64,000 nucleotides of DNA from Ruminococcus sp. Its GTDB lineage: Bacteria; Bacillota; Clostridia; Oscillospirales; Ruminococcaceae. The notes under the pieces were generated by a model. The model was not told the DNA's origin. It did no database searches and saw nothing but the letters and a program-made list of their open reading frames with translations. The stretch spans positions 1 to 64,000 of the forward strand of contig JAFZRF010000008.1 of the NCBI GenBank assembly GCA_017620025.1, in the 5' to 3' direction. The position numbers and the translations under genes were made by a program. Shown piece after piece: positions 45,278 to 57,621 of the stretch; the first letter of the stretch is position 1; every line of letters starts with the position of its first letter.

Positions 45278-46438
45278 ATGAAAAAAGTACTTGCAGCAAT
45301 CACCACACTTGTTATGTTAGGCTCTTTCGCATCATGCGGAGCTGTAACATCACCTGAAAACACCGGCACCAACACCAACACACCCAAGGGCGACGGCACA
45401 AAGACAGTCGGCATCGCAATGCCCACAAAGTCCCTCGAGCGCTGGAACCGTGACGGTGAGTACCTCAAGGCTCAGTTCGAGGACGCAGGCTACAAGGTAG
45501 AGCTGAAATACTCCGACGACAAAACCGACCAGCAGAACAACGATATCCAGAGCATGATCGCTGACAAGGTAGATCTCCTTCTTATCGCAGCTGTTGACGG
45601 AAGCTCACTTTCCCAGACACTCGCTGACGCCAAGGATGCCGGCATCGCAGTAATAGCTTACGACCGTCTTATCATGAATACAGACGCCGTTTCCTATTAC
45701 GTATCATTCGATAACTACACCGTAGGAAAGCTTCAGGGCGAGTATGTACGTGACGCTCTCGATCTCGACAACACAAGCGAGACCTACAATATCGAGTTCA
45801 CAGCAGGCGATCCCGCAGATAACAATGCGCCCTACTTCTTCAACGGTGCTTATGATACACTCAAGAAGTACATCGACAAGGGCACTCTCAAGATCCCGTC
45901 CGGAAAGACCAAGTTCGAGCAGGTTGCTACCCTCGGCTGGGCTACAGACACAGCTCTTGAAAATATGCAGAACACACTTGCTTCCTACTACTCAGACGAT
46001 GTACAGCTCGATGTTGCTCTCTGCTCCAACGACTCTACAGCCCGCGGCGTAACACAGGCTATCTCTTCTGACTACAAGGGCAAGAATTCTCCTATCGTAA
46101 CAGGTCAGGACGGCGATATCACAAACCTCAAGAATATCGTTGACGGCAAGCAGTCAATGACAGTATACAAGAACGTAAACGAAGAAGCATCCGTTACTCT
46201 CGAAGTTTCCAAGGCTGTTCTCGCAGGACAGACTCCCGATGCAAGCCTTCTGAACTCTGTTACTGTTGAGGCTGCATATGATACCGAGTCATACAACAAC
46301 GGCGTGAAGGTCGTTCCTTCATACCTCCTCGTTCCTTATGTTATCACAAAGGATAACCTCGATCTCCTCGTTGATACCGGTCTCTACAAGTGGGATGCCA
46401 ACAAGAAGTATCTCGAGTCCACAGCTGAGACCACCTGA
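45278..46438 (+). CDS. chvE: multiple-monosaccharide ABC transporter substrate-binding lipoprotein
   Basis: A 386-residue exported lipoprotein: signal peptide with lipobox FASC and Cys20, a Thr/Asn linker, then a periplasmic-binding-protein type I fold. ChvE-type features include VGIAMPTKSLERWNRDG at the start, IQSMIADKVDLLLIAAVDGSSLS, AYDRLIMNTDAVSYYVSFDN, and ALCSNDSTARGVTQA with VTGQDGD near 270. ChvE relatives bind galactose, glucose, arabinose, xylose and other aldoses. Codon use is strongly biased towards highly expressed gene codons. First gene of a three-gene importer operon; a hairpin after it probably raises its level over the rest. Confidence 0.94.
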   Translation: MKKVLAAITTLVMLGSFASCGAVTSPENTGTNTNTPKGDGTKTVGIAMPTKSLERWNRDGEYLKAQFEDAGYKVELKYSDDKTDQQNNDIQSMIADKVDLLLIAAVDGSSLSQTLADAKDAGIAVIAYDRLIMNTDAVSYYVSFDNYTVGKLQGEYVRDALDLDNTSETYNIEFTAGDPADNNAPYFFNGAYDTLKKYIDKGTLKIPSGKTKFEQVATLGWATDTALENMQNTLASYYSDDVQLDVALCSNDSTARGVTQAISSDYKGKNSPIVTGQDGDITNLKNIVDGKQSMTVYKNVNEEASVTLEVSKAVLAGQTPDASLLNSVTVEAAYDTESYNNGVKVVPSYLLVPYVITKDNLDLLVDTGLYKWDANKKYLESTAETT

Positions 46439-46477
46439 TCGGAGAACACCTGATCACAGTATAGTCATATTGTCTGT

Positions 46478-46505
46478 AAAAGGGCGGGCTCTGCCTGCCC
46501 TTTTT
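46478..46505 (+). terminator. intra-operon hairpin after chvE (partial terminator)
   Basis: AGGGCGGGC and GCCTGCCCT arms followed by TTTTT. It stands between chvE and gguA and would let only part of the transcripts continue, so more binding protein than transporter is made. Confidence 0.75.
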
Positions 46506-46550
46506 CTGAGCGCAAATTACTCTGACAGACACTGAAAAGGAGAGATATAC

Positions 46551-48086
46551 TTGGCAGAATATATTCTCGAAATGAAAAACATAACAAAGGAATTCCCCGG
46601 TGTTAAGGCTCTCGATAACGTAAATCTCAAGGTACAGCCCGGCGAGATACACGCCCTTGTAGGCGAGAACGGTGCAGGCAAATCCACTCTAATGAACGTA
46701 CTCAGCGGCACCTATCCCTTCGGCTCCTACACAGGCGATATCGTCTACAACGGCGAGGAGTGCAGGTTCAGGAACCTGCATGACAGTGAGGAAAAAGGAA
46801 TAGTTATCATACATCAGGAGCTTGCCCTCATCCCCGAGCTCTCCATAGGCGAGAATATGTTTCTCGGCAACGAGCGCAAGGGACTGTTCGGCATAAACTG
46901 GGACAGGACATTCCACGAAGCAGGAGAGCATATGCGTCAGGTCGGCCTGAAGGAAGAGGCCACCACGCTTATCAAGGATATCGGCACCGGCAAGCAGCAG
47001 CTCGTTGAGATAGCAAAGGCTCTCAGCAAGAACGTAAAGCTGCTGATACTCGATGAGCCGACCTCCTCACTCAACGAAGAGGATTCAAGGATGCTCCTCG
47101 ACCTGCTCATCAGCTTCAAGAAGAAGGGCATGACCTCTATCATCATCTCGCATAAGCTCAACGAGATATCCTACGTTGCCGACAAGATAACCGTTATCCG
47201 TGACGGAGCGACTATCGAGACCATCGACAACGCAGAGCATAACATAGACGAGGCCCGCATCATCCGCGGCATGGTAGGACGTGAGCTCAGCGACCGCTAT
47301 CCCGCCCGTGAACACAACGTGAGCGACAAGGTGGGCATGGAGGTCAGCGGCTGGACAGTCCATCATCCGCTGTACACCGAGAAGAAGGTCGTGGACAACG
47401 TCTCCTTCAACGTCCGCCGCGGCGAGATAGTCGGCTTCTCCGGCCTGCAGGGCGCAGGACGCACAGAGCTTGCCATGTCGATCTTCGGTCGCTCCTACGG
47501 CTCCGATATCAGCGGAAAGCTGAAGATAGACGGCGAGGAAAAGGAGCTGAAGACCGTCTCTGACGCAATCAAGGCCGGACTTGCATACGTGACTGAGGAC
47601 AGAAAAGGCAACGGACTCATCCTTGCGGAGAGCATTGCCAAGAATATCACTATGTCACGCCTTGAAAAGGTATGCAGCAAGGGCATAATAAATATTGACA
47701 AAGAAAACTCCGTCGCAGAGGATTACAGGGAAAAGCTCCGTACAAAGACTCCTTCTGTACAGCAGTCAGTCGGTAATCTCTCAGGCGGAAATCAGCAGAA
47801 GGTGCTGCTTTCAAAGTGGATGTTCGCAGATCCCGAGGTGCTTATCCTCGATGAACCCACAAGAGGTATCGATGTAGGTGCCAAGTATGAGATATACTGC
47901 ATCATGAACGACCTTGTGGCGCAGGGCAAGTCCGTGGTAATGATCTCTTCCGAGATGCCCGAGCTGCTCGGTATGTGCGACCGCATCTACGTTATGAACG
48001 AGGGCAGAATGGTTGCGGAGATGCCTGCTGCGGAAGCAACGCAGGAAAAGATCATGGCAGCTATCCTTCAGTCCGACAAACAATAA
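46551..48086 (+). CDS. gguA: multiple-monosaccharide ABC transporter ATP-binding protein
   Basis: A 511-residue double ATPase of the ribose/galactose importer class. The first domain has Walker [10 protein letters not shown] and Walker [16 protein letters not shown]. The second has [11 protein letters not shown] in place of a normal Walker A (usual for this class), signature [17 protein letters not shown] and Walker [17 protein letters not shown]. Switch motifs [10 protein letters not shown] and [12 protein letters not shown] are present. The start is a TTG at 46551 placed after AAAGGAGAGATATAC. It works with ChvE and GguB to import aldoses. Confidence 0.94.
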
Positions 48087-48105
48087 ATGATCGAAGGAGT
48101 ATAAT

Positions 48106-49266
48106 ATGAACGTAAAGACTTTCATCAAGAAATACACCATGGTCATTGCACTGGTCGTGGTATTCATATTCTTTTCCATCTGGACAGAGGGCAAGCTTCT
48201 GCTCTCACAGAACCTTTCAAACCTTCTGCTCCAGAACGCATACGTGCTCGTTATGGCCTGCGGTATGCTTCTGTGCATACTCACCGGCGGTAACATCGAC
48301 CTCTCTGTAGGCTCGACCGTCTGCCTCATAGGCGCGATAGCGGCGCAGCTGATGTCGAAATACGGCATGAACGCATATCTCGTAATATGCCTGTGTCTCG
48401 CGCTTTCACTGCTCATAGGAATGTGGCAGGGCTTCTGGATAGGATATATACATATCCCGCCGTTCATCTGTACCCTTGCGGGTATGTTCCTCTTCCGAGG
48501 CATCGGACGTGCGATACTCGGATCAAAGAGCGTTGCCATCAACGACGAGACCTTCCTCAACACATTCGCTTCCTACATCAATATCCCCGGTCTTGACGAA
48601 GAGACAAAGTGGTCGGCATTCATTGCAGGTCTGATAATCGCCTGCATACTTCCCGTCGTTACCTTCCTCAGCCGTGCAAAGAAGAAAAAGAAGGGCTACA
48701 AGATGCCCTCCGCTTTATCACAGTATGCAAAGATAGGCGTCATCGACCTGCTTGTCATTGCCTACGCATGGAAGCTCGCAAACTACAAGGGAATCCCCGT
48801 AATGGCTCTGTGGGTGCTCGCTATCGTATTCATATACGCATTCATAACCTCCAAGACCGCCTTCGGCCGCTACTTCTATGCAGTCGGCGGAAACGAGAAG
48901 GCCACAAAGCTCTCGGGTATCAATACCAACAAGGTATACTTCCTTGCCTATACCTCCATGTCGCTCCTCGCAGGCCTTTCCGGACTTCTTATCGCAGCCC
49001 GTATCGGTTCCATCAACGGCGATACAGGTAACTCCTTCGAGATGGACGCTATCGGCTCATGCTTCATCGGCGGCGCCTCTGCTTACGGCGGAAGCGGTAC
49101 CGTAGGCGGCGTTGTAGTCGGCGCTATCCTCCTCGGCGTTATCAACCAGGGTATGTCGATCAGAGGACTCGACAACAACTGGCAGTATGTAGTAAAGGGC
49201 GCAGTTCTCCTTATAGCCGTTATCTTCGACGTTGTTTCAAACAAGAAGACAGGCAAGGCAGGATAA
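48106..49266 (+). CDS. gguB: multiple-monosaccharide ABC transporter permease
   Basis: A 386-residue membrane protein with about ten helices. Class landmarks are LCILTGGNIDLSVGSTVCLIGAI in the second and third helices, GIGRAIL, the central AFGRYFYAVGGNEKATKLSGINTNKVYFLAY coupling loop, and GSCFIGGASAYGGSGTVGGVVVGAILLGVINQGMS near the end. A Lys-rich cytoplasmic loop (RAKKKKKGYK) is near residue 190. It forms the channel of the ChvE-GguA-GguB importer and lies 19 nt after gguA. Confidence 0.94.
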   Translation: MNVKTFIKKYTMVIALVVVFIFFSIWTEGKLLLSQNLSNLLLQNAYVLVMACGMLLCILTGGNIDLSVGSTVCLIGAIAAQLMSKYGMNAYLVICLCLALSLLIGMWQGFWIGYIHIPPFICTLAGMFLFRGIGRAILGSKSVAINDETFLNTFASYINIPGLDEETKWSAFIAGLIIACILPVVTFLSRAKKKKKGYKMPSALSQYAKIGVIDLLVIAYAWKLANYKGIPVMALWVLAIVFIYAFITSKTAFGRYFYAVGGNEKATKLSGINTNKVYFLAYTSMSLLAGLSGLLIAARIGSINGDTGNSFEMDAIGSCFIGGASAYGGSGTVGGVVVGAILLGVINQGMSIRGLDNNWQYVVKGAVLLIAVIFDVVSNKKTGKAG

Positions 49267-50088: not shown

Positions 50089-52617
50089 TTACTCAGCACT
50101 GATTATGCCTGCATCTATCTTCTGAATGGTGAGTGCGTCTGTTCCTGTGATACCTGCTGTGCCGTCTATATCGGCATTCTTCCTTCCCTGAGCGGTGAGA
50201 GGATATTTTTCATTATTCGTAACGTACTGTAGTACGGCTACTGCATCGGCGATATTTACCCTGGTATCAAGATTTGCGTCTCCGGCAGCAGCGGGAGCTG
50301 CTGTGCCTTCCTCAGCTGTCATATCCATGTTGAATTCTGCAAGAGCAGCCACGATGCTGTCAAGCTCTTCCTTGGCTGACAGACCGCCATACGATCCTCG
50401 TCCATGATGTCTGCTGAACTCATAGAAATTGGAATTGAATACCTTGTAATACTGAATATCAGGATTCTCCTCGAAATATGCCTGCTGTGCATCCAGGAAT
50501 GCCTGTGTATCGCTGTAGTTCTTATCAAGCTCGCCGTATATATACATAAGCATACACTCAGTTTCAAGGAAATCGGCGCTTATTCCGTTGTTGTTGAAAT
50601 CGAAGTTTGTCTCGAAATTATCGCGTATCTCCTGAGAAACGCCTATAACAGGCAGGAGCTCGGGATAGCGTCTTACCATTGTGCCGAAGTAACCCTTCTT
50701 GTAAGGACAGCTGAACTCGCATTCAAGATTGAACAGGATATTGAAATCAGCGTCATCTATCTTTCCGTCAAGGTTGATATCCGGCTTCGGAAGCTCTCCT
50801 GACTTTACCTTCCTGTAGTATTCCGGAAATGCTTCATTTATCTCTTCTCTTGTAAAATTCATGCGCTCCGGGAGCTCGATCTCTTCTGTCATGGGGCCGT
50901 ATCTGATAGAAAGCTCCTCATAGAGTGCGAGATTCTCAAGTACAGGATAGCGTCTGCAGAACTCAAGATTGTTATCAGAATAGTAATCAAAATCGAAGAA
51001 CTTCGGATCTGTCTCCTGACTGGTCACACAATACTCAGCAAGAGCCTCAACCATATCTTTATCGAAATCGTATGTGTACGCCGGTGCTATCTCAAAGAAC
51101 CTGATAGCCTTCTCCATTCCGTTTCTGGTTATAGGTGAATCAGAGAAATCCATCCAGTCCGGCACATTGTGATACGTTGTACTCTCCGGAAAAGCGATAT
51201 CACGCAGGAACTGATCATCACTCAGCTCGCTTGCAGTCCAGAGATTATAAGATGCATAAGCCAGCAGAGCTACATCCTGGAAATTGAACACTCCGTCCGA
51301 ATTGATATCAACATCAACGATCCCTTTCTCAACGAGCTCTTTCATGATGTACGATCCGGTTCCTGTCACGTGGTTAGAATAATTATAATAATCTATGAAG
51401 CGATATATATGTGAAGTAAGGAGCTCCTTCTCCTTTTCGAGTTCCGCCAGCGTCAATACGTTTTCGTCCGCCACGATATCCTCCTTGGTGATACGTCTGA
51501 TCTGTCCCTCTTCTTCACGTATATATATACTGCTCTCCCTGTATTTATAGTAATCCCACTCGCCGTCATCACGCCTGATAAGATCATTGGGGATCACAGC
51601 ATTGTATTCGTCCGGACAGTTGTCAATATAGTAATTCGGATCAGAATACTCAATATGAGGGGTATTGCTGGATAAGAAATACTCCATTATATCATTGTAG
51701 CTGAGTTTGTGGTTCGTTTCGTCAACGTCATAAGTACGCCACATATACTCAATACCCGATTTCCACGCATCAGTTGCACACGTAAAATTGATATCAATCG
51801 TGGGAATTGAATCGTATTTCTCCTGTATGTAGTCGGGAACAGTGCAATCTCCGCGGCAATTTTCAATGTTATAGAACGCATATACATCAAAGATGTCAAA
51901 TTTTCCGTCGCTGTTAATATCCAGCCATGATTCTCCGTTCTGCTCTATAAATGCTTTTACCGTCTGTACACCTAACAGGTAATCAGTATTCGCTCTGTAT
52001 TCCTGCGCATTCGTGTTGATAGCCGTTGCATTTGAGAACATAAGGACCGACGTTAAAAATGCAGTATATTTTTTCACAATAAGACTCCCTTCGTATTCAT
52101 AGTCTGAAACCGGAACAGTGTTCCATGTTCCGTTTCCGTTATTAACGTCCACGGCAATGGGTGATGTTGCCGTGATACATCCGGTGCCGCTGACTACAGC
52201 ACCGCTCTGTGTCTGTGAAGCTGCTGCGGAGGTCTGGCTGACGGCAGCAGCAGTATTTGTATTCCCGGAAGTGCCCGTTTCAGCCGGAGCAACTGTGGTA
52301 TGCCTGTCTGTCTTTTTCTCTGACCCTTCAGTAACAGCAGGAGATGTCGGAGTTACAGCCGGTCCCGTCTCCGATACGATCATATCGTCCGGAGGAGTGA
52401 TATCCGGCGGCGCAGGCATATTCTTCAGGTATACACCTACACACAGCGCGGCAGCAAGACCGGCTGTGCCTGCGGCAAACCTGTAGAACAACGGTAACCT
52501 CTTATCTCTGTGTCCGGATGACGAGAGGTTTTCTATTTCGGCAAAAAAAGCATCTTTTTTATTTGATTCCAGGGATACGTATGAATCCTGTATTGCTTTC
52601 CTGAACTTTTTATTCAA
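50089..52617 (-). CDS. membrane anti-sigma-like protein fused in frame to a dockerin-bearing secreted protein
   Basis: An 842-residue frame. Residues 1-43 are a cytoplasmic charged helix region; one membrane helix (YRFAAGTAGLAAALCVGVYLK) lies at 44-65. A Thr/Ser/Pro/Ala linker follows to about 175. At residue 181 a second signal-peptide-like segment begins (VKKYTAFLTSVLMFSNATA), coded by a GTG with its own ribosome site. The remaining 640 residues are acidic and Tyr-rich, with single dockerin-like calcium loops at 233-244 (DINSDGKFDIFD), 437-448 (DINSDGVFNFQD), 613-624 (DINLDGKIDDAD) and 673-684 (DFNNNGISADFL), and a full dockerin at 779-838. It starts 15 nt after an ECF sigma gene. It may make a tethered receptor, a free 662-residue secreted protein from 52077, or both. 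Confidence 0.75.
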   Translation of the reverse strand: MNKKFRKAIQDSYVSLESNKKDAFFAEIENLSSSGHRDKRLPLFYRFAAGTAGLAAALCVGVYLKNMPAPPDITPPDDMIVSETGPAVTPTSPAVTEGSEKKTDRHTTVAPAETGTSGNTNTAAAVSQTSAAASQTQSGAVVSGTGCITATSPIAVDVNNGNGTWNTVPVSDYEYEGSLIVKKYTAFLTSVLMFSNATAINTNAQEYRANTDYLLGVQTVKAFIEQNGESWLDINSDGKFDIFDVYAFYNIENCRGDCTVPDYIQEKYDSIPTIDINFTCATDAWKSGIEYMWRTYDVDETNHKLSYNDIMEYFLSSNTPHIEYSDPNYYIDNCPDEYNAVIPNDLIRRDDGEWDYYKYRESSIYIREEEGQIRRITKEDIVADENVLTLAELEKEKELLTSHIYRFIDYYNYSNHVTGTGSYIMKELVEKGIVDVDINSDGVFNFQDVALLAYASYNLWTASELSDDQFLRDIAFPESTTYHNVPDWMDFSDSPITRNGMEKAIRFFEIAPAYTYDFDKDMVEALAEYCVTSQETDPKFFDFDYYSDNNLEFCRRYPVLENLALYEELSIRYGPMTEEIELPERMNFTREEINEAFPEYYRKVKSGELPKPDINLDGKIDDADFNILFNLECEFSCPYKKGYFGTMVRRYPELLPVIGVSQEIRDNFETNFDFNNNGISADFLETECMLMYIYGELDKNYSDTQAFLDAQQAYFEENPDIQYYKVFNSNFYEFSRHHGRGSYGGLSAKEELDSIVAALAEFNMDMTAEEGTAAPAAAGDANLDTRVNIADAVAVLQYVTNNEKYPLTAQGRKNADIDGTAGITGTDALTIQKIDAGIISAE
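52075..52091 (-). promoter_or_regulatory. internal ribosome site and GTG start inside the anti-sigma/dockerin frame
   Basis: On the minus strand, AAGGGAG (52091-52085) is followed after seven bases by GTG (52077-52075), then a Lys-Lys, hydrophobic core and Asn/Ala-type cleavage region: a signal peptide. All in the same frame as the larger protein. This decides whether a shorter secreted product is made. Confidence 0.7.
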
Positions 52618-52632
52618 ATCAAAAACCTCCCA

Positions 52633-53079
52633 TCATTCAAAATCTTTTTTCAGGACAGACAGTATCTTTTTTATCCTGCGGTCCATTGCGAACCTTGAGA
52701 CTCCGTAGAGCTTGCTCAGAACACTGACAGGTACTTCATTCTTGTATCGCAGAAGTATGAGCTCGCTGTCCTCCTCCGGCAGCTTTCTTATCGCATCGGA
52801 AAGAGCCACTCCCGTGAGGACATCCTCCTCATGATCTGCGTCATCAGGAAAGGTATCAGTAAGTTCCTCGGAAGGCGTTTTACGGTAGTGGTCCGCACAC
52901 AGATTGCCGGCGATCGTGTACAGATACTGCAGGTCTTTGCCAATGCCGTGATACTGCGGATGTTCAAGGAATCGAAGGAAGGTCTCCTGACATATGTCTT
53001 CCGCTACATCACGGTTATGTACTTTATAGAAGCAGTATCGTAAGATCCTATCGTACTGATCTTTCAAATCTAATGACAT
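52633..53079 (-). CDS. ECF-type sigma-70 family sigma factor (second pair)
   Basis: A 148-residue sigma factor, short for the class. Region 2 lies at about 5-70 (YDRILRYCFYKVHNRDVAEDICQETFLRFLEHP, LQYLYTIAGNLCADHYRK). Region 4 is at about 95-145 (LPEEDSELILLRYKNEVPVSVLSKLYGVSRFAMDRRIKKIL). The linker between is acidic. It differs clearly from the sigma factor at 38113, so the two pairs are not recent duplicates. GGGAGG precedes the ATG. The promoter upstream is a normal sigma-A type. The anti-sigma/dockerin frame follows after 15 nt. Confidence 0.88.
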   Translation of the reverse strand: MSLDLKDQYDRILRYCFYKVHNRDVAEDICQETFLRFLEHPQYHGIGKDLQYLYTIAGNLCADHYRKTPSEELTDTFPDDADHEEDVLTGVALSDAIRKLPEEDSELILLRYKNEVPVSVLSKLYGVSRFAMDRRIKKILSVLKKDFE

Positions 53080-53198
53080 ATTGACCTCCCTTCACAATGT
53101 ATGACGTTCTCAAAGCCCCTTTGTGCGCTTTTAATTGTAAACGTTTGATTAATTTTCTGTTAATATATCATTAACACGCGCAGCTGTTATCATTTTAT

Positions 53199-53463: not shown

Positions 53464-56400
53464 TCAGATATTTGATCTTAAAAATTCTTCAAGCCCGATA
53501 TCGTAGCCTGCGCTGTTATACGCATAGAATGCAAGCAGCAATGAAGCATCGCTTGATGTGACTCTTCCGTCTCCGTTTACATCGGATACCTCAAGCGGAA
53601 CAGAAGGCTCTCCGCCGGTTGAGAGGTTTGCGTATTCATCAAGCAGGCAGGAAGCATCCACAGCATCTACCATGCCGTCTCCGTTGATATCGCCCTTCCT
53701 GAGATCCTTCGGAGGCTCGGACGGTACAGTCGTTGTTGTCTCAGGCGCTATATCAGCCGCAGTTTCCGTTGTGGCCGCATCAGCTGTAGTCTCTGCAGGC
53801 TCTGCCGTTGTTGTGGCAGGAGCTTCTTCCGTGGTCGTTGCAGGCTTTGTTTCCGTGGTAACCGGTACAGCGGTCGTTACGGTTGAAACTGTCTCTGCCG
53901 GTGCGGTCGCAGCCGTTGTTTCCTCCGGCAGCTCTGTCTCAGCAGGATCGTTGATATGGATCGTCTTCTCCATGCTCTCTGTATTCTCAGTGCCTGCATA
54001 TGACAGACAGCCCGTGCCGACCTTTACGGTAACGTCCGCAAGCTCGGAGTAATCTCCCACGAGAACAAAGGTGTCGGTCACCTCTTCATCTGTTCCGTGG
54101 AATACAGGCTCTATGGTGTATCCGGGGAAGCCCTCAACCGTAACTGTATTGTCATTTACAGAATCGGACTGCATATACTTGCCGAAACAGAACCTTATGC
54201 ATCCGCTCTCCTCCTGATCATACCATATATCCGATACCTCGCCGGGTGCATCACTGCTGAGGGCGAACTCGATAACAGGATTCTCATCACGGACTGTTAT
54301 CTTGCCGCTGTCGATCTGTTCAAAACCCTCTGCATTGCATACTATCCTCCAGTCACCCACAGGAGCTATCCATGCGAAGTGTCCGGTCTCGTCAGAGATC
54401 ATGGGATTCTTCTGATATGTGTCTTCCGGATCCCAGGGCATCTCCCTGCCGTCCTCGTCTATACTGTAAATGGTTATCTCTGCCCCGCCTATGGGATTAG
54501 AAGGCGCTGCCTCGTATACAGTGCCGTTTCCTTTTTTAAGGAACACTATCTTTGCGGGATAGGAGAAGAAACCTCCGGTATAATCGATCTCCTCGCCGGC
54601 AGCCGCATCGGCCTTCGTTACTATAATGATATTGATACCGCCCGGCTCTCCGGCAGGAACATCAAGCTGTCTGGTAGCTGTCCATACGTCATTCTCCTCG
54701 TCGTACCTCGTCTCTATCAGCTGAGTTGAGACAGCTTTTGAGGTTATGCTGTTATTTGTGATGAACACCTTGCTTATAAGCTCGCTGTTGCTGATATCAA
54801 GAGTGAACTTTACCGTTCTGTCGGGGAGCAGCAGCTTGACGGGTGAAGCACATTCCGCAAAGGCATCTGTAACATCTGCATCGCCCTCCCACTCATTGAC
54901 ACGGAGCTTTACACTCCTTACAGCAGGCTCTGCCTCGGAGTAGACAACAGTGTATTCCTCTGTCTTCACGCCGTTGTATCCGGCATAGAATGTGAAGGTG
55001 TCACCCTCCTTTGTTTCCTCAGGAAGCACTACGGTAACGAAGAATCTGCCTGTAGCCGGATCAGTTACGGGAGAGTCTATGAGCTTGCCGTCCATAAGGA
55101 TATCAACGGGAGTGTTCACAGGGCCCATTCCGCTGATCGTGAACAGTTTAGTGTTCACGGCAGCCGGAACATTGAGAACCAGTTCCTTTACGGAAACCCT
55201 TACCGAGCCTATGGGTTCTGTCCATGTTTTACCGTCTGCTGATTTAAGCACAAGATCTGAATCTATATCGAATTCGCCGGCTTCCTTTGCTGTAAGGGAG
55301 AAGTTCACCTCGCCGCTGCCGGTCGTGAATACGATCTCCTTCTCACCGTTACTGAACGTTTTGTTTTCCTCAACAGTACCGGACACCGCCTCGACTGAAG
55401 CCTCGTCCATTCCAAAGGATGACGGAACAGTGAGCAGCAGGGTGAAGTTTCCGGAAGCATCTGCAAAATCATCAAGAGCATCAAAGGAAACAGTGAAATT
55501 CACCTTTCCTCCGACAGCCGCACTTTTCACATCTGCCCTGATCTCCGACTCCGGGCGTGAGAGATGAACGAATCTCTCGTCCTTGAGCGAATAGCAGTGA
55601 TAGAAGGCATCGCACTTTATATCAGCATCTTCGCCGGTATAGTTCACCTTTGAAAGGCTGCGGCAGTTGCTGAATGAATACTCGCATACCGTCTTGACAG
55701 TATCAGGAAGAGTTACCTCCTCAAGAGCTGTATCATTGCGGAATACGATGGAATTGAGCAGCGTAACGCCCTTTCCTAAAACGGCTGACCGGAGCGACTC
55801 GCAGCTCTCAAAGGCACTCAATCCGATATCAGTCACGCTGTCGGGGATAACTATGCTCCTGAGACCGCTCCTTATGAATGCTGATGAGTTTATGGTCTCA
55901 AGCCCCTCGGGGAGTTCTATGCTCTTCAGTGAATAGGTGTTCCTGAAAGCGTAAGTATCAATAGTCTTCAGAGACTCCGGAAGAACGACCTCTTCAAGAG
56001 AATAGACATTGCTCAGACAGCCATAGGGTATCTTTGCCATACCGTCAGCGAATATGACCTTTCTGAGCGTTTTGCATCCTTCAAAGCCCGACTGGCAGCT
56101 CTTCAGCGTAGAAGGAAGGGTTATCTCAGTAATTGCCGTGTTGGAAAAAGCATTTGTGTTTATGGTCTCAAGCCCCTCGGGGAAAGTAAATTCAGCAAGA
56201 CTGATGCAGTTCTTGAAGGCGCCATAACCTATTGCCTTTATGGAATCCGGAAGTATAACAGTCTCTACCCCTTTGGCATCATCAAGACAGAATTCCGGTA
56301 TCGTTACTGTGCCCTCTGCAAACGTCACCTGCTTAAGAGTCTTTGTTCTGAATGCGTTACTGCTATCCGTAAGAGTAGAAGGAAGAGTTATCTTGGCAAG

Positions 56401-57621
56401 GGCAGTATTATCGAATGCGCCGTACTGTATCTTTTCAATTCCCTCATGGAATGTAAAGTCAGAAAGGCTGCGACAGTTCTTAAAGGCAAAGCTGCCTATC
56501 GTCTTTACAGTGTCCGGCAGGATGACGGTCTCAAGTCCTGTTGCATCATAAAGGCAGGAGTCCGGTATGAGCTCTGTGCCTTCGGCAAAAGTCACCTTTT
56601 TAAGAGACTTTGTTCTGAATGCGTTACCGCAATCCGTAAGAGTAGAAGGAAGAGTTATCCCGGTCAGGGCTGTATTGTCAAATGCGCCGAAATGTATCTC
56701 TTCAAGTCCCTCATGGAATGTGAATGTGCTCAGACTTCTGCAGTTACGGAAGGCATAGTTGCCTATGTTCTTTACAGTATCGGGCAGGATAACAGTCTCA
56801 AGCCCTGTTGCATCATAAAAGCAGGATTCCGGTACAAGCTCTGCGCCCTTTGTAAGTGTTGCCTTTTTCAGTGTGGAAGTTCTGAATCCGTTGTTACAAA
56901 CTGTAAGAGTAGAAGGAAGTGTTATCTCTGTCAGCGGTACATCGTCAAATGCGCCGAAATGTATCTCTTCAAGCCCCTCATGGAATGTAAAGGAGCTCAG
57001 ACTTCTGCAGTTACGGAAGGCATAGGTACCTATCGTCTTTACGGTATCGGGCATGATAACAGTCTCAAGCCCTGTTGCATCATAGAAGCAGTCTTCGGGA
57101 ACGGTCTCTGTACCCTTTGCAAATGTTGCCTTTTTCAGTGTGGACGTTCTGAATCCGTTGTTACAAACCGTAAGAGTTGACGGGAGAGTTACCTCTGTCA
57201 GAGGTACATTGTCGAATGCGCCGAACTGTATCTTTTCAATTCCCTCATGGAATGTGAAGGAGGTCAGACTTTTGCAGTCGCCGAAAGCTTCCGACTCGAT
57301 GACCGTAACTGTCTTCGGTATGGTAACTGAGGTTATCTTTGATTTTGAACTGAATGCATTCGATCCGATAGCTGTTACAGGCTTTCCGTTGATCTCATCC
57401 GGAACCGTGATAACGGTATCCGAGCCGTTGTACTTACTGACAGTTATACCGGTATCGTTTCCCCTGTAGGAATAATCACCGTACCGCGGATCGGCAGCAC
57501 AGGCAGTCATGACCGGCAGCTGGGCCGTATTCCACGGTGCCGAGACCGGTGTCAGACTGAACGACATCATTGATGCAGCTGCAGCAGCACAGGCAATGAT
57601 CCTTCTTACCCTTCTGTTCAT
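53464..57621 (-). CDS. giant secreted BspA-type LRR protein with C-terminal dockerin
   Basis: A protein of 1385 residues. Signal peptide about 1-42. LRR_5/BspA repeats fill about 55-690, including five tandem 89-residue units (121-565). A cohesin- or Ig-like beta region follows (about 700-1030), then a carboxypeptidase-regulatory-like domain (1033-1115) with DETGHFAWIAPVGDWRIVC. A short beta domain (about 1120-1220) leads to a Thr/Glu/Pro/Ala linker (about 1225-1305) and a dockerin at 1310-1378 (DINGDGMVDAVD and DVNGDGRVTSSD). It matches the plan of the 1540-residue protein except that the protease core is absent. GGAGG precedes the ATG. A half-dockerin remnant follows its stop. Confidence 0.88.
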   Translation of the reverse strand: MNRRVRRIIACAAAAASMMSFSLTPVSAPWNTAQLPVMTACAADPRYGDYSYRGNDTGITVSKYNGSDTVITVPDEINGKPVTAIGSNAFSSKSKITSVTIPKTVTVIESEAFGDCKSLTSFTFHEGIEKIQFGAFDNVPLTEVTLPSTLTVCNNGFRTSTLKKATFAKGTETVPEDCFYDATGLETVIMPDTVKTIGTYAFRNCRSLSSFTFHEGLEEIHFGAFDDVPLTEITLPSTLTVCNNGFRTSTLKKATLTKGAELVPESCFYDATGLETVILPDTVKNIGNYAFRNCRSLSTFTFHEGLEEIHFGAFDNTALTGITLPSTLTDCGNAFRTKSLKKVTFAEGTELIPDSCLYDATGLETVILPDTVKTIGSFAFKNCRSLSDFTFHEGIEKIQYGAFDNTALAKITLPSTLTDSSNAFRTKTLKQVTFAEGTVTIPEFCLDDAKGVETVILPDSIKAIGYGAFKNCISLAEFTFPEGLETINTNAFSNTAITEITLPSTLKSCQSGFEGCKTLRKVIFADGMAKIPYGCLSNVYSLEEVVLPESLKTIDTYAFRNTYSLKSIELPEGLETINSSAFIRSGLRSIVIPDSVTDIGLSAFESCESLRSAVLGKGVTLLNSIVFRNDTALEEVTLPDTVKTVCEYSFSNCRSLSKVNYTGEDADIKCDAFYHCYSLKDERFVHLSRPESEIRADVKSAAVGGKVNFTVSFDALDDFADASGNFTLLLTVPSSFGMDEASVEAVSGTVEENKTFSNGEKEIVFTTGSGEVNFSLTAKEAGEFDIDSDLVLKSADGKTWTEPIGSVRVSVKELVLNVPAAVNTKLFTISGMGPVNTPVDILMDGKLIDSPVTDPATGRFFVTVVLPEETKEGDTFTFYAGYNGVKTEEYTVVYSEAEPAVRSVKLRVNEWEGDADVTDAFAECASPVKLLLPDRTVKFTLDISNSELISKVFITNNSITSKAVSTQLIETRYDEENDVWTATRQLDVPAGEPGGINIIIVTKADAAAGEEIDYTGGFFSYPAKIVFLKKGNGTVYEAAPSNPIGGAEITIYSIDEDGREMPWDPEDTYQKNPMISDETGHFAWIAPVGDWRIVCNAEGFEQIDSGKITVRDENPVIEFALSSDAPGEVSDIWYDQEESGCIRFCFGKYMQSDSVNDNTVTVEGFPGYTIEPVFHGTDEEVTDTFVLVGDYSELADVTVKVGTGCLSYAGTENTESMEKTIHINDPAETELPEETTAATAPAETVSTVTTAVPVTTETKPATTTEEAPATTTAEPAETTADAATTETAADIAPETTTTVPSEPPKDLRKGDINGDGMVDAVDASCLLDEYANLSTGGEPSVPLEVSDVNGDGRVTSSDASLLLAFYAYNSAGYDIGLEEFLRSNI
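55927..57261 (-). repeat. five tandem 267-bp repeats inside the LRR-dockerin gene
   Basis: Five in-frame copies of an 89-codon unit (residues 121-565). Each begins FTFHEGxE and runs through ITLPSTL, a FRTxxLKK turn, FYDATGLETVILPDTVK and AFRNCRSLS. The first four copies are very alike in DNA as well as protein (for example CTCAAGCCCTGTTGCATCATA recurs), the fifth less so. Such repeats can expand or contract by recombination. Confidence 0.88.

Follow-up and report, generated by a model that had tools for sequence, protein, structure and literature searches.

In the 64,000-nucleotide (nt) stretch of Ruminococcus sp. analyzed here (the window; contig JAFZRF010000008.1 of assembly GCA_017620025.1), the gene of a sigma factor is followed, after 15 nt, by a single frame that joins the layout of a membrane anti-sigma factor to a secreted-type dockerin protein. 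We propose, with a probability of roughly 0.58, that these two genes form a three-product module, in which the sigma factor is accompanied by a tethered dockerin sensor (the long form) and a secreted copy of the same dockerin protein (the short form). Comparison of related loci supports the layout, the selection on the internal Shine–Dalgarno (SD) sequence, the coding nature of the linker, and the exchange of the secreted part as a cassette. Docking to a cohesin as the signal, competition between free and tethered forms, and a self-limited regulon would follow as further steps.

The fused gene and its sigma factor

The original prediction, made from this one stretch, described a sigma gene, a 15-nt gap, and one 842-codon frame, with a GTG at codon 181 seven bases behind AAGGGAG that opens a signal peptide, and with four single calcium loops and a full C-terminal dockerin. 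It held in each of these points (coordinates in Table 1), as did its order of head, membrane helix, and linker; by hydropathy, the first helix falls within residues 43–66 or so. This is the layout of an anti-sigma factor: the gene adjoins that of a sigma factor, and its product starts with an N-terminal head and a single membrane helix before the linker. Codons 150 to 181, where a stop would have split the gene in two, are free of stop codons in the window and likewise in the ortholog L179 from another genome. The genome behind the window was assembled into 70 contigs (2.7 Mb, completeness 76%), and local single-base errors are possible in it. The fused layout itself is not an assembly artefact, because cultured strains have the same one.

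The sigma factor belongs to the extracytoplasmic function (ECF) class. It matches Sigma70_r2 (PF04542) with 38.6 bits (cut-off 24) and the ECF superfamily model TIGR02937 with 57.7 bits (cut-off 42.9), and its region 4 scores fall below the cut-offs (PF04545, 21.3 bits for a cut-off of 24.1; PF08281, 17.6 for 25.7).

Recurrence across the genus

We searched 125 genomes of the genus with profiles of two sigma types, of which type A was matched in 74 (E 1e-20) and type B in 77 (E 1e-30). Part of the downstream regions was fetched, giving 100 frames beside a sigma gene, 49 of them with and 51 without a match to the dockerin profile. A scan with the core of the dockerin protein across named genomes gave 26 loci from Ruminococcus, R. 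flavefaciens, or metagenome-assembled genomes of unclassified Clostridia, Clostridiales, or Bacillota. Twelve of these were added (one, L221, then proved a duplicate) and the other 14, whose contigs match in length those of loci already in the set, were taken as identical with them. The 49 rows, minus one duplicate and minus L071 (discussed below), plus the 11 new loci make up the 58 distinct fused frames used here. These are not independent, as clustering of their heads gives 40 groups at 60% identity and only 10 at 40%. Since the sigma-based set takes the longest frame after each sigma gene, its linkers are open by construction; the 26 loci found by their core are free of that constraint. 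In all 26 the core continues upstream into a head-like stretch, and none is a free-standing secreted gene. Three of the 11 added loci are incomplete: the frame is broken ahead of the dockerin in L226 and L234, and L236 is cut off by the end of its contig.

The core-found loci include the cultured R. flavefaciens strains FD-1, ND2009, ATCC 19208, Y1, XPD3002, MA2007, and YAD2003, in all of which the units are candidate regulators accessible to culture. The fused design also stands beside other sigma and head classes, and ATCC 19208 is an example of a strain with several units of differing sigma class (L057, L059, and L064). Assembly error and chance fusion were considered as origins and are ruled out by the 58 distinct frames, the several head classes, and the cultured strains. 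As for a phage origin, an alignment of the core compared with viral contigs gave 136 pattern matches, none of them a relative.

At the level of the order, the sigma-A profile was run against 394 genomes (a draw from a larger group) and matched in 11, 10 of them outside the genus. In 7 of these 10 loci the next gene encodes a protein of 233–244 amino acids (aa) with several hydrophobic stretches, as judged by eye, and in the other three (L245, L246, and L250) a script found no plausible next gene. The fused design was not found outside the genus. This does not prove that it is absent there, since the search for type-B sigmas and for the core covered 25 genomes outside the genus.

In one contig of a metagenome-assembled genome (G126:C104), two fused genes, L193 and L197 (L226 and L234 in the named record), both have frames that are interrupted ahead of the dockerin, for which either an assembly error or a phase change could account.

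The internal start

The internal site was picked in each frame by start codon, charge, and hydrophobicity, and not by its SD, so that the counts of start codons are partly due to construction and those of SDs are not. In four loci (L221 and L236–L238) it was located with typed peptide anchors. A start codon stands at the site in 57 of the 58 frames, namely 56 ATG and the window's sole GTG. With a strong SD defined by a duplex energy with the anti-SD of −9 kcal/mol or better, 51 of the 58 internal sites carry one, compared with 17 of 1160 other in-frame ATG or GTG codons of the same frames.

The SD lies inside codons, and the choice of codons betrays it. Glycine at codon −4 is written GGG in 24 of 25 frames (GGG makes up 4.9% of glycine codons), and arginine at the same place is written AGG in 24 of 25 frames (18.5% background). 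When the eight residues 5' of the site were kept and their codons redrawn by usage in 200 trials, a mean of 4.94 and a maximum of 10 of the 58 sites kept a strong SD. Against the 51 observed, this argues that the SD is selected as RNA, and we regard the internal SD as being under nucleotide-level selection on the strength of these comparisons. It is encoded by differing peptides (E-G-S, E-R-S, K-E-D-Q-D, K-E-D-E, and Q-G-G). Conservation of E-G-S or E-R-S at the peptide level, for example as a protease site, was weighed as the sole cause; the synonymous redraw rules it out, as does the occurrence of the SD in peptides other than these two.

The long form

Between the window's frame and L179, the linker has a nonsynonymous rate (dN) of 0.295 for a synonymous rate (dS) of 0.837, and dN lies below dS in 9 of the 10 pairs compared; the tenth (L055/L188) has zero synonymous and two nonsynonymous changes in the linker. 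In the heads dN is well below dS wherever dS is computable and nonzero (0.091 versus 0.709 for the window and L179). Judged by these rates, the linker, and hence the long form, is coding sequence. Selection on the SD and a coding linker together imply that the tethered and the secreted forms are probably both made, and both would be expected to accumulate. The layout behind the prediction that one gene yields a tethered and a secreted form recurs, as a pattern of sequence, across the genus.

Within residues 1–180 no Pfam match was found at E 0.1. Heads of one class are found again and again beside sigmas of one class, and the head may accordingly bind and inhibit the sigma factor. The second hydrophobic stretch, the predicted signal peptide of the short form, has a lower hydrophobicity than the first helix in all 47 frames measured, as a signal peptide should, so in the long form it is likelier translocated than a stop, and the dockerin part would lie outside the cell.

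Split relatives and cassette exchange

The genus also holds dockerin-less anti-sigma frames, which serve as natural controls. Of the 51, two broken frames of the fused kind (L193 and L197) and a truncated one (L066) were set aside. In none of the remaining 48, of which 43 are type A, was an internal SD with a signal peptide found. In 22 of them, all beside type-A sigmas, a second gene stands −4 to 184 nt behind that of the anti-sigma and has its own SD, start codon, and signal peptide as well as dockerin repeats (at E 1e-3 or below); in 12 of the 22 the gap is only −4 to 29 nt. For the other 26 no separate secreted dockerin gene was seen, the downstream sequence being short or absent in several. 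The split loci include one in the window's own genome (L169, G000:C23) and one in a near relative (L166, G133:C5), in which the sigma gene precedes an anti-sigma frame of 628 or 598 aa, respectively, and a secreted dockerin-repeat protein. As to whether relatives would hold the two halves fused or always apart, then, the fusion recurs and this core was found only with an upstream head (26 of 26 loci), and halves of the same kind also stand separately in 22 of the 48 dockerin-less loci.

A tree of type-A sigmas (66 rows, rooted at the midpoint only) gathers the 23 fused ones in a single group (support 100/99) with no split row inside. The dockerin-less type-A anti-sigmas that were read (L067–L069) carry more sequence past the linker, whereas the fused heads pass from the linker directly into the dockerin protein, which therefore seems to substitute for an outer domain.

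Head and core have different relatives. The window's head is nearest to those of L179 (67%), L060 (38%), and L061 (34%), which all belong to type A. For the core, L179 (67%) is again the nearest, followed by type-B frames (36–38% for the nearest six), the cores of L060 and L061 being outside the 30 best. The E-Y-E-G-S residues that encode the SD travel with the core and not with the head. On this sequence evidence, the secreted module is exchanged as a cassette that includes its SD. In two pairs (L182/L187 and L055/L188) head and core are of very unequal divergence, as expected if the two recombine apart.

In one genome (L066, 2837–3370 of G007:C11) an anti-sigma gene ends soon after Y-E-Y-E-G-S-L, which looks as though loss of the secreted cassette had cut it off at the internal start.

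The dockerin and the core

The C-terminal domain matches Dockerin_1 (PF00404) over residues 778–833 with 39.6 bits (cut-off 22.9), which places it among the type I dockerins, and it resembles the group 1 (enzyme-type) dockerins of R. flavefaciens (5m2o and 5m2s) in sequence and predicted fold. The part of PMC5429695 that we draw on names I39, S40, V43, Q47, Q83, and L87 as contact residues of group 1 dockerins; in an alignment by eye, the window's dockerin retains I39, V43, Q47, and Q83 and has alanine at positions 40 and 87. A dockerin like those of enzymes is consistent with, and only consistent with, cohesin docking as the signal. In its own genome the frame has 79 matches, that is, itself and 78 matches to its dockerin end, and the genome has four cohesin matches; across the genus, the presence of cohesins is uninformative as a correlate, with a match in 124 of the 125 genomes.

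For the core outside the dockerin, seen within the larger model (predicted local distance difference test 78.6, predicted template modeling score 0.69), none of the chains compared gave a convincing fold match, and we do not claim a new fold. A Pfam scan of 21 cores returned the dockerin in 19, one weak GEVED match, and no carbohydrate-binding or other domain.

Working model and alternatives

In the proposed module, the head of the long form would bind the ECF sigma factor, and the membrane helix and linker would hold the dockerin protein outside. Ribosomes would also initiate inside the frame at the SD-preceded codon, yielding the short form, which would be secreted free by its own signal peptide. 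The tethered dockerin would bind enzyme-type cohesins of scaffoldins at the cell surface, and docking would lead to proteolysis of the anti-sigma, release of the sigma factor, and transcription mainly of its own operon. The secreted copy would then occupy the cohesins and displace the sensor by competition, so that the module would measure free cohesin sites and stop once these are filled. As for its origin, the simplest starting point would be the three-gene order (sigma, anti-sigma, and secreted dockerin protein) that relatives still have. Fusion, by loss of the anti-sigma stop codon or by in-frame capture of a secreted-dockerin cassette that retained its own start, would have converted the split into the fused arrangement, and through it the dockerin protein would also have become the outer domain of the anti-sigma. 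Taken to its full extent, this describes a cell-surface thermostat for cellulosome assembly, in which the tethered dockerin probes unoccupied enzyme-type cohesins, the sigma factor answers through its own operon, and the secreted copy silences the sensor; this fullest version we offer only tentatively, as less likely than not.

Several observations weigh against the proposed module. The head matches no known anti-sigma family, and signal peptidase may cut the internal signal peptide of the long form and so untether it. One frame with a dockerin-profile match (L071, outside the 58) lacks the internal signal peptide, another (L181) has GTC in place of the internal start codon, and the SD is weak in 7 of the 58 frames (L063, L064, L159, L177, L178, L186, and L201). 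Of the 22 separate third genes of split loci, only 3 reach E 1 or better with the core profile (15–16 bits); with hardly any homology between them and the fused module, the two are parallel in arrangement, and a passage from one to the other by loss of a stop codon is conjectural. Two of the six contact positions of the dockerin are changed (S40 to A and L87 to A); among 24 dockerins of the same genome, read by eye, alanine stands at position 40 in 17 and at position 87 in 23. Finally, the promoter motif described below was read by eye, and with two mismatches allowed its pattern is uninformative (25 matches versus 14 for the control in the window's genome, G000, and 27 versus 30 in G133).

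The possible cut by signal peptidase leads to a different explanation, in which the long form alone matters and the internal start is a relic. The internal stretch would then be cut by signal peptidase at site 1, a mode known from RsiP-type anti-sigmas, and cleavage would free the dockerin protein and start intramembrane proteolysis of the anti-sigma. RsiV-type anti-sigmas are likewise cut at site 1 by signal peptidase. A small-x-A motif follows the internal stretch in 43 of 47 frames, the stretch is kept where the SD is weak or the start codon lost, and such cutting of an anti-sigma has been published (PMC8844934). Yet this account leaves unexplained the conserved SD, with its synonymous choice of GGG and AGG in differing peptide contexts, and the joint exchange of module and SD, and we consider it rather improbable. 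Less probable still, in our view, is that two genes merely share a frame, the long form being tolerated read-through and the fusion doing nothing but couple the doses of anti-sigma and secreted dockerin protein. Split operons of the same order, many of them tightly spaced, do speak for such coupling, but the group of fused type-A sigmas contains no split row, the linkers are coding, and the fused part seems to replace an outer domain, given the further sequence past the linker in L067–L069.

A further account concerns the signal and is compatible with dual products. Here the loop-rich helical core would sense a polysaccharide or another ligand, and the dockerin would only anchor the short form to the cellulosome. 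Unequal divergence of core and head in the two pairs above would fit, and, according to PMC11557425, it is polysaccharide that the RsgI receptors of other cellulosome bacteria sense. Against it stand the cores themselves, in which no carbohydrate-binding domain was detected by Pfam; that none of the chains compared matched the fold of the core beyond the dockerin may also count against it. Ligand sensing by the core is a possibility, though a doubtful one.

Relation to known systems and significance

The SigI/RsgI systems of Clostridium thermocellum and relatives, to which the original prediction had linked the locus, likewise occur in cellulosome bacteria and pair a sigma gene with that of a protein that spans the membrane once, has its head in the cytoplasm, and senses with its outer part. 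Kinship with them was not supported: the sigma factor here is ECF, with no SigI model among the best 25 of its 63 NCBIfam matches, no RsgI domain was found in the head (by Pfam), and the outer part is a dockerin protein; an internal SD, start, and signal peptide for a secreted copy are a further difference. The part of PMC11557425 covered reports the dedicated RsgI suite only in Acetivibrio-type cellulosome bacteria.

The SigV/RsiV and SigP/RsiP pairs of Bacillus are similar in that an ECF sigma is paired with a membrane anti-sigma and that regulated proteolysis is reported to be set off by a protein ligand from outside, which is lysozyme in the case of RsiV; here, on the other hand, the ligand would be the cell's own scaffoldin. 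We know of no dockerin and no second start in these pairs. Bacterial genes with two in-frame forms, such as SpaO and AerR (likewise from partial sources), share the principle of one frame and two proteins, and differ in that the inner start considered here bears a signal peptide and would shift the fate of the product from membrane-tethered to secreted. The group 1 dockerins of R. flavefaciens, in turn, share sequence, predicted fold, and four of six named contact residues, and differ in sitting on enzymes instead of an anti-sigma-like protein. No description of a dockerin-bearing anti-sigma with a second start was found in the literature covered, which excludes supplementary tables and most subscription papers; in the main text of PMC2930009 the words sigma and transmembrane do not occur.

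The units could help explain how the fibre-degrading machine of Ruminococcus is controlled. They are also a natural example, with many members, of an internal start whose use would turn a tethered protein into a secreted one, and their dockerin-less and split relatives can act as controls. Output and off-switch may be united in the secreted copy, and, were the thermostat true, sensor, effector, and competitor would all come from one gene, with several units of differing sigma class working in parallel in one genome.

Candidate promoter, features, and neighboring genes

In many cases, the type-A sigmas of fused operons have a GCACA-like element, a spacer of 15–17 nt, and CGTCA (in some GTTAA) shortly 5' of the gene, and the window's candidate ends 21 nt 5' of the sigma start. 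The strict pattern has five matches in the window's genome, two in G133, and two in G017. Of the five, four lie inside same-strand open reading frames (ORFs) of at least 80 codons and the fifth precedes the sigma gene; one of the ORF-internal matches (L258) also lies 57 nt before an ORF of 301 codons. In G017 one match is 5' of the sigma gene, and within 150 nt of the other there is no ORF of 80 codons. Immediately 5' of the candidate −35, at about 53127–53150 (minus strand) of the window, stands a GTTTACAATT-like element that is also seen by eye in many type-A relatives and is a possible site for a further regulator.

Table 1. Features of the sigma gene and the fused gene in the window
Feature	Position	Strand	Basis
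Candidate autoregulatory ECF promoter, GCACA-15 nt-CGTCA(T)	53101..53126	−	Motif by eye from upstream regions
ECF-type sigma gene, 148 aa, ATG start	52633..53079	−	ORF call, Sigma70_r2, TIGR02937
SD GGGAGG of the long form, 8 nt 5' of TTG	52626..52631	−	Sequence reading
Fused frame, long (tethered) form, 842 codons, TTG start	50089..52617	−	ORF call; open in ortholog L179
Cytoplasmic head, residues 1–46, proposed sigma-binding part	52480..52617	−	Homologous heads adjoin the same sigma class in relatives
Membrane helix, residues about 47–66	52420..52479	−	Hydropathy
Thr/Ser/Ala-rich linker, coding, residues 67–180	52078..52419	−	dN/dS versus L179
Internal SD AAGGGAG, inside the E-G-S codons	52085..52091	−	Duplex energy and comparison
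Internal start GTG, codon 181	52075..52077	−	ATG in 56/58 frames
Signal peptide of the predicted short form	52000..52077	−	Hydropathy
Single calcium loop 1, residues 233–244	51886..51921	−	
Single calcium loop 2, residues 437–448	51274..51309	−	
Single calcium loop 3, residues 613–624	50746..50781	−	
Single calcium loop 4, residues 673–684	50566..50601	−	
C-terminal dockerin, residues 778–833, group 1-like	50119..50286	−	PF00404, structure comparison

Directly upstream of the sigma promoter, a neighboring gene (53464–57621, minus strand) encodes a protein of 1385 aa with LRR_5 (BspA-type) repeats and a C-terminal dockerin. Past the end of the fused gene, on the opposite strand (45278–49266, plus), the ORF list alone indicates apparent genes of a sugar ATP-binding cassette transporter (binding protein, ATPase, and permease).

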